Position numbers and translations under genes: made by a program | From: Hydrogenothermaceae bacterium | Lineage (GTDB): Bacteria; Aquificota; Aquificia; Aquificales; Hydrogenothermaceae | Length of the DNA stretch: 5,377 nucleotides | Direction of reading: 5' to 3' | Assembly (NCBI GenBank): GCA_012961365.1 | Contig: DTZN01000125.1 | Coordinates: 1-5,377 of the forward strand | Shown here: positions 1,656-1,748 of the stretch, one piece after another | How positions within the stretch are numbered: position 1 is the stretch's first letter | Layout: every line of letters starts with the position of its first letter | Notes under the pieces: generated by a model | Database searches by the model: none | What the model was told of the DNA's origin: nothing | What the model saw: the letters and a program-made list of their open reading frames with translations, nothing else

Positions 1656-1684
1656 TTGACAAGTTAATAGTAATTTAGTATATT
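1656..1684 (+). promoter_or_regulatory. Near-consensus sigma-70 promoter after the cbb3 operon
   Basis: TTGACA (1656-1661) and TATATT (1679-1684) are separated by exactly 17 nt, matching 11 of 12 consensus bases. It is among the best promoter matches I see in the window. The expected transcription start is near 1690-1692, at the start of the C-rich tract. A strong terminator begins only about 25 nt later, so the promoter would chiefly yield a very short RNA unless there is read-through into the rhomboid gene. Chance occurrence is possible in DNA this AT-rich. Confidence 0.6.
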
Positions 1685-1690
1685 AGTAGT

Positions 1691-1741
1691 CCCTCCCCCT
1701 CCCCCAAAAATTTTGGCATCTCGCAATGAGATGCCCTTTTT
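1691..1741 (+). ncRNA. Candidate small RNA with C-rich 5' end and terminator hairpin
   Basis: Between the promoter start site and the terminator the predicted transcript is about 50-55 nt. It opens with CCCTCCCCCTCCCCC (1691-1705), then A5U4, then an 8-bp terminator hairpin. A 15-nt pure C/T tract is very unusual in a genome of about 30% GC. As RNA it is single-stranded and contains CCUCC twice, the complement of the GGAGG Shine-Dalgarno core; the three cco genes upstream all carry strong GGAGG sites. C-rich, SD-binding regions are known in other bacterial sRNAs (for example RsaE in Staphylococcus, and RepG of Helicobacter which binds G tracts). An alternative fold, CCAAA/TTTGG (1704-1716), would share the first two bases of the terminator stem. 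It may instead be just the 3' untranslated end of the cbb3 transcript. No expression evidence exists here. Confidence 0.4.
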
Positions 1742-1748
1742 ATTTTTT
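1715..1748 (+). terminator. Intrinsic terminator of the cbb3 operon and/or the candidate small RNA
   Basis: A perfect 8-bp stem GGCATCTC (1715-1722) and GAGATGCC (1728-1735) with loop GCAAT is followed by CTTTTTATTTTTT. An A5 run at 1706-1710 could extend pairing with the T run. It is the clearest rho-independent terminator in the window. It sits 76 nt past the last cco gene and just before the rhomboid promoter region. Confidence 0.9.

Follow-up and report, generated by a model that had tools for sequence, protein, structure and literature searches.

The C/U-rich pairing part of the Helicobacter small RNA (sRNA) RepG is its terminator loop, and in Neisseria the promoter of the pilE sRNA drives a C-rich transcript from a G-rich template. 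In Staphylococcus and Bacillus, RsaE/RoxS is described as having C-rich single-stranded regions able to pair with Shine-Dalgarno sites (PMC4409812). FsrA of Bacillus and IsrR of Staphylococcus, both under Fur control, bind Shine-Dalgarno sites through C-rich motifs (PMC9410917). In Aquificota, a survey of noncoding RNAs with dRNA-seq in one species, Aquifex aeolicus, yielded about 100 candidates, and its main-text table of selected candidates contains no RNA like the C-rich RNA of the same phylum described here (PMC4227106).

We analyzed a 5,377-nt stretch of DNA, the window, which is contig C125 of a Hydrogenothermaceae draft genome (G000), an assembly of 315 contigs and 1.65 Mb. The RNA predicted in it shares with RsaE/RoxS a C-rich single-stranded region with the potential to pair with Shine-Dalgarno sites. 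However, it is composed of one long 5' tract and one hairpin, whereas RsaE/RoxS has several C-rich regions in a multi-hairpin structure, and it comes from another phylum and has no Rfam match. Like FsrA and IsrR, iron-sparing sRNAs that target iron-protein mRNAs, it has a C-rich motif, and its copies in a Desulfurobacteriaceae-like family carry a Fur-box-like element; but the window's own family lacks a consistent Fur-box signal, no Rfam match connects them, and IsrR has three stem-loops and a terminator where the Aquificota RNA has the terminator hairpin only. The C/U-rich pairing region recalls that of RepG but is located in the 5' tail, and the predicted C-rich transcript over a G-rich template recalls the pilE sRNA.

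No Rfam family reached its gathering score over the sRNA in the window and 12 related loci, and no published C-rich Aquificota sRNA was found in the literature searched, which comprised the main texts of papers outside subscription. Judged from comparative sequence analysis, the locus is very likely a real sRNA gene, undescribed as far as that literature shows.

The cassette in the window

The initial annotation had proposed a promoter with 11 of 12 consensus bases and a 17-nt spacer, a C/T tract and a perfect 8-bp hairpin, and all were found where it had placed them (Table 1). The cassette is flanked on one side by the cco (cbb3 oxidase) cluster, whose last gene ends at 1638, and on the other by a rhomboid gene at position 1784. 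The claim that no room is left for a protein also held, as no open reading frame (ORF) of at least 40 aa was present in this gap. Since no start codon was conserved in the RNA among the aligned family loci, no protein fits the RNA. The "three cco genes" named upstream fared less evenly: the gene at 318-1067 matched the FixO family in a Pfam/NCBIfam search, while the genes at 1118 and 1414 had no family match in either collection.

Table 1. Predicted features of the C-rich RNA locus in the window, and loci of further C-rich RNAs
Feature	Position	Strand	Details or basis
Promoter, TTGACA - 17 nt - TATATT	1656..1684	+	-35 at 1656-1661, -10 at 1679-1684; 11/12 consensus bases
Predicted sRNA, ~51-58 nt	1691..1748	+	Start placed near 1691 from the -10 box; end within the T run
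C-rich tract CCCTCCCCCTCCCCC, two CCTCC	1691..1705	+	15 nt, C/T; predicted unpaired seed
A/T linker AAAAATTTT	1706..1714	+	Sequence
Terminator hairpin, perfect 8 bp, loop GCAAT	1715..1735	+	Sequence, folding, covariation
U-rich tail CTTTTTATTTTTT	1736..1748	+	Sequence; possible Hfq site
Second C-rich RNA in the window's genome	G000:C277:4185-4248 (= L154:2086-2149)	-	Own hairpin
Second C-rich RNA, other loci	L140, L142-L153, L155		Own hairpin
tRNA-adjacent C-rich RNA in the Desulfurobacteriaceae-like family	L471, L474, L477, L478, L482, L484, L485		

We then compared these signals with chance. Promoter-like sites in the window occurred at the shuffled level (26 found versus 24.6 expected, two of them reaching 11/12), and terminator-like sites were near it (5 versus 3.2). 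Because both counts are at or near the shuffled level, promoter and terminator alone prove little. Allowing at most two mismatches, the C tract occurred at two places in the window, the other being inside a tRNA gene, and at none in all 200 shuffles, well above the level of chance. The case for the predicted cassette rests on its conserved order and spacing, not on the promoter match.

Three further observations concern the window itself. Its rhomboid protein is 93% identical to the copy in a Hydrogenothermus MAG record (L032). The rhomboid gene may also have a promoter of its own, with the TATAAT at 1754-1759, just 3' of the sRNA terminator, as its -10 box. Positions 1-177 are unlike the ccoN region of relatives, and positions 178-400 are 97% identical to L505; the first 177 nt are likely a chimeric assembly end, in which FabF-like and ABC-transporter-like pieces were recognized by eye.

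Conservation and distribution in Aquificota

The cassette was also found 5' of the rhomboid gene in other genera. Among 14 aligned loci from Hydrogenothermaceae (family f1), much of the tract, the loop GCAA and the T run were invariant, and the tract in the window was one 4-nt unit shorter than in the nearest relative. The hairpin covaried: six of the nine model pairs changed on both sides, with 99.1% of cells paired across the 14 loci. This covariation score was reached by none of 500 shuffles, and hairpin versions slid along the alignment reached at most 53.8% paired.

A promoter with at least 9 of 12 matches stood at the expected place in 21 of 23 f1 loci (exact TTGACA in 17 of the 23). In 21 of the 23, the exceptions being L006 and L134, the end of the -10 box was 3 to 7 nt away from the matched tract, counted with its leading A or T; from this spacing, the predicted start is the head of the tract. 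The -10 box of the Aquificaceae-like family (f2) lay 25 to 44 nt before the tract in 11 of 14 loci, so the 5' end of the RNA would be extended there by roughly 18 to 37 nt. The initial annotation had set conservation of the terminator alone against its own proposal; in the relatives, promoter, C tract, spacing and terminator were instead kept together.

Using a covariance model (R1) built from 14 Hydrogenothermaceae copies, we found that the top match within the window's genome was window 1686-1741, at 62.1 bits. R1 matched 33 of 41 f1 genomes at E<=0.001, covering 22 of the 23 good-quality genomes and 9 of 10 genera. Scores of at least 57.9 bits were obtained in 23 of the 33; the other ten held weaker variants, a second C-rich RNA or contig-end fragments. 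At E<=0.01, a match was present in 78 of the 136 Aquificota genomes, and in 51 of the 88 that are of good quality; the matches fell in three of the five families searched, f1, f2 and the Desulfurobacteriaceae-like f5, where the names of f2 and f5 are provisional. Control genomes of other groups gave matches in 4 of 50 at E<=0.01 and in 1 of 50 at E<=0.001, the control set covering 50 of 77 such loci; the best control scored 30.4 bits, a value exceeded in 71 of the 136 Aquificota genomes. Thus, the RNA gene recurs, in the same form or as a close variant, in over half of the Aquificota genomes searched.

The core 12-mer CCCCCTCCCTCC was present in 106 of the 136 genomes and had no occurrence in 30, including 3/3 of genus g9 and 5/5 of genus g16. 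In f5, it was found at 60 places versus 2 for a reversed control, a control which in f1 often lands inside the sRNA tract itself. When 17 of the f5 places were fetched, 10 looked like sRNA genes and 7 did not; copy numbers counted by the 12-mer would therefore be inflated, and it was rejected as a stand-alone detector.

Further C-rich RNAs were also present. Many f1 genomes have a second one, roughly AGCATCCCCCTCCCTCCCCCTCC with its own hairpin (15 loci read; Table 1). At nine such loci in genus g7, the predicted start is preceded, at a distance of about 41 nt, by a palindrome, ATGAT-N4-ATCAT, which is degenerate in L142. The palindrome is conserved and placed as for a CRP/FNR-type activator, but its locus-by-locus comparison with shuffles was not significant. 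Some g7 copies also show a palindrome, noted by eye, in the promoter spacer. The second C-rich RNA of f5 has a terminator and directly follows a tRNA gene in seven loci, the tRNA being confirmed by Rfam in both loci tested; the two are perhaps co-transcribed. In genus g8, L139, L157 and L160 carry ACCTACCTCCTCC before a terminator, in which anti-Shine-Dalgarno-like motifs are repeated but no C run is long; this may be a version that degenerated or arose by convergence. The Fur-box-like element TGATAACTATTATTA overlaps the f5 promoters with 11 to 12 of 14 bases in 4/4 loci (L177, L178, L181 and L182) and is tandemly duplicated in L177; the scan for such a signal in f1 gave nothing consistent, and several f2 loci lay outside it.

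Predicted pairing with ribosome sites and candidate targets

Two to four CCUCC motifs were present in all 12 tract groups, a count per group only mildly above that of shuffled tracts (P 0.07-0.61). Their complement, GGAGG, is given as the Aquificales ribosome site (PMC4227106). When copies were folded, the tract was predicted to be unpaired at 37 and 70°C in all five from f1, two of which were copies of the second RNA, and largely unpaired in three from f5; it was partly paired at 37°C in four from f2, and in three of these four also at 70°C. As modeled, the C-rich tract is an unpaired region complementary to ribosome sites in the window and a partly paired one in f2. Hfq is encoded in 41/41 f1 genomes, twice in most, and a crystal structure has U-rich RNA bound to Aquifex Hfq (PMC5379935).

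We consider anti-Shine-Dalgarno pairing the best reading of the mechanism and, on the sequence features, more probable than not. Transcription would start near 1691, and the C-rich 5' end would stay unpaired in the cell. The tract could then act as a free anti-Shine-Dalgarno sequence, pairing in trans with the G-rich ribosome sites of selected mRNAs, and Hfq may help at the U tail. The outcome would be repression, with translation of the target mRNAs blocked.

To look for targets in f1, we sampled GGGRGGG-N2-10-ATG sites among those listed and kept ORFs of at least 80 aa that had distinct N-termini and an in-frame stop codon no more than 120 nt upstream, which reduced 131 test and 54 control sites to 48 and 41. 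The duplex energies leave mRNA structure out. At 70°C, ordinary AAGGAGGT sites paired weakly with the tract, averaging -4.7 kcal/mol and reaching -6 or lower in 3 of 41 cases, whereas the GGGRGGG sites, which had been selected for complementarity, did so in 48 of 48. This difference bears on the alternative that the RNA is an abundant anti-Shine-Dalgarno mimic competing with 16S rRNA for all ribosome sites as a global dial on translation. CCUCC does fit the ordinary site GGAGG (PMC4227106), and the f2 sample lacked special strong sites at gene starts. However, ordinary sites pair weakly in the heat, and strong sites conserved in one operon point to selectivity; we regard a global effect as unlikely.

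That operon encodes a COX1-type terminal oxidase. The most stable duplex was formed at the COX1 site of G007 (PF00115). The operon was found in 12 of 41 f1 genomes, all from genera g3 and g7 (2 of 10 genera), and the f1 search did not find it in the window's own genus. The COX1 (haem) gene keeps a G-rich site in 12/12 genomes, at -8.1 kcal/mol or lower at 70°C with the g7 consensus tract. The immediately preceding gene was not preselected; it has a weak, sub-threshold CoxB match and likewise a G-rich site in 12/12, at -8.8 kcal/mol or lower. Because the carrier genomes are related, 12 conserved sites are not 12 independent events. For the third gene of the operon, one of nine readable copies reached -8. 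Among the sampled g7 loci, 23 of 74 distinct genes reached -8, of which 16 were oxidase genes, leaving 7 of 58 in the remainder. From these comparisons, the COX1-type operon of the two sister genera appears to be the best candidate target; in the window's own genome, no target equally good was identified.

It had been suggested that the RNA might feed back on the neighboring cco operon. The cco ribosome sites pair only about as well as ordinary ones: among 65 values from 17 loci, a single one was -8 kcal/mol or lower at 70°C (ccoN was unread in three and mis-started in one, and ccoN and two small genes were named by eye). The window's own tract gave -6.2, -5.5 and -4.4 kcal/mol at the same temperature. 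This argues against feedback on cco, and the proposed oxidase link would survive only in altered form, with a different oxidase in sister genera.

Other candidate targets were considered. A DUF481 outer-membrane protein was rejected as a conserved target, as no more than 3 of its 26 readable orthologs, out of 30 rows, keep a strong site. Four of the seven non-oxidase g7 genes reaching -8 are alike and lie near a DUF481 gene (MscS-like by eye; L378, L381, L382 and L387), a further candidate. An N-terminal hydrophobic segment was predicted for 27 of 48 GGGRGGG-site ORFs versus 10 of 41 AAGGAGGT-site ORFs (p=0.003; p 0.003-0.026 over four cut-offs), with 16/24 versus 5/27 in the first batch and 11/24 in the second. 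An envelope-protein regulon was not adopted, given the second batch alone and a control that was not ideal (strong AAGGAGGT sites, partly from other genomes). GGGAGGG ribosome sites are also present at three orthologous genes, in L202, L207 and L210, for a secreted protein that has multiple CxxCH motifs and looks by eye like a multihaem cytochrome.

In f2, GGGGRGGG-ATG sites began a real ORF in 0 of 30 sampled, one site per genome, and a carry-over of the target class to this family, with its very constant tract, was rejected. Since f2 gave no real starts in this sample and its tract is predicted to be partly paired, a shared target set is disfavored, and the targets are therefore likely lineage-specific.

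Remaining alternatives and the independence of the gene

The G-less C/U tract might instead bind Rho or another single-strand RNA-binding protein, titrating it or tuning termination. E. coli Rho is described as recognizing CC and UC dinucleotides (PMC13323073), and the tract consists of C and U only and is predicted to be unpaired in Hydrogenothermaceae. However, the order of the U residues hardly varies inside a genus, and the core CCCCCUCCCUCC reappears in different families. A YC-binding protein would need neither, and such a protein decoy is improbable.

Transcription of the pilE sRNA in Neisseria has been proposed to serve a quadruplex or R-loop structure, and the G-rich template strand here could in principle act in the same way, as a DNA-level element. 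Four runs of three or more C, separated by loops of 1 to 7, were present in 21 of 38 sRNA loci tested, including 7/7 in f2 and 4/4 in f5. Unlike at pilE, the pattern is missing from the other 17, among them the window and 11/11 of genus g7, and from 6/6 copies of the second RNA, and the hairpin and the RNA's own terminator are kept throughout. We hold this explanation to be very unlikely.

It is equally doubtful in the extreme that the element is a terminator or leader of its neighbors and no RNA regulator. Most f1 copies do lie between cco and rhomboid, and four loci from genera g6 and g8, L135-L138, have a variant tract that starts at most 15 nt after a membrane protein gene (with 4Fe-4S domains in L135), from whose mRNA the variant may be processed. 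However, the element's own promoter travels with it and the downstream gene varies. In genus g5, the sRNA follows gltX and, at L130 and L133, converges with a phosphoribosyltransferase gene; in f2, it is convergent with tmk or ahead of sfsA, and in f5, it is ahead of mnmA. L172 and L173 are also convergent. The terminator sequences differ from family to family while the C tract persists. The covarying hairpin, and the retention of a C-rich tract with two to four CCUCC through changes of terminator and neighbors, indicate an independent sRNA gene. The initial proposal, a new C-rich sRNA that is transcribed on its own and has the potential for anti-Shine-Dalgarno pairing, is thus supported, at the level of prediction, by the conserved cassette, its unrelated neighborhoods and the lack of an Rfam match.

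Since promoter spacing, terminator and neighbors have all changed, the C tract must be what is kept. A wider proposal is offered tentatively, and as a whole it is less probable than the pairing mechanism itself: the RNAs may form a phylum-wide class of free-standing anti-Shine-Dalgarno RNAs in Aquificota, with two kinds per genome in several genera and the tandem CCUCC tract as their sole lasting feature. They would compete with the 3' end of 16S rRNA, choose their mRNAs through extended G-rich sites whose pairing withstands high temperature, and switch the COX1-type terminal oxidase in Persephonella-like genera.

Most sRNAs are traceable only within one genus or family; the present gene, very small as it is, is traceable, itself or as close variants, across three families in a thermophilic phylum that branched off early. 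It gives Aquificota, in which Hfq is present and the one noncoding RNA survey found centers on Aquifex aeolicus, a concrete candidate sRNA. It also raises the general question of how an anti-Shine-Dalgarno mimic can be selective and stay paired at 70°C. If the wider proposal is true, the RNAs would represent an old layer of translation control that mimics the ribosome's own mRNA-binding sequence.
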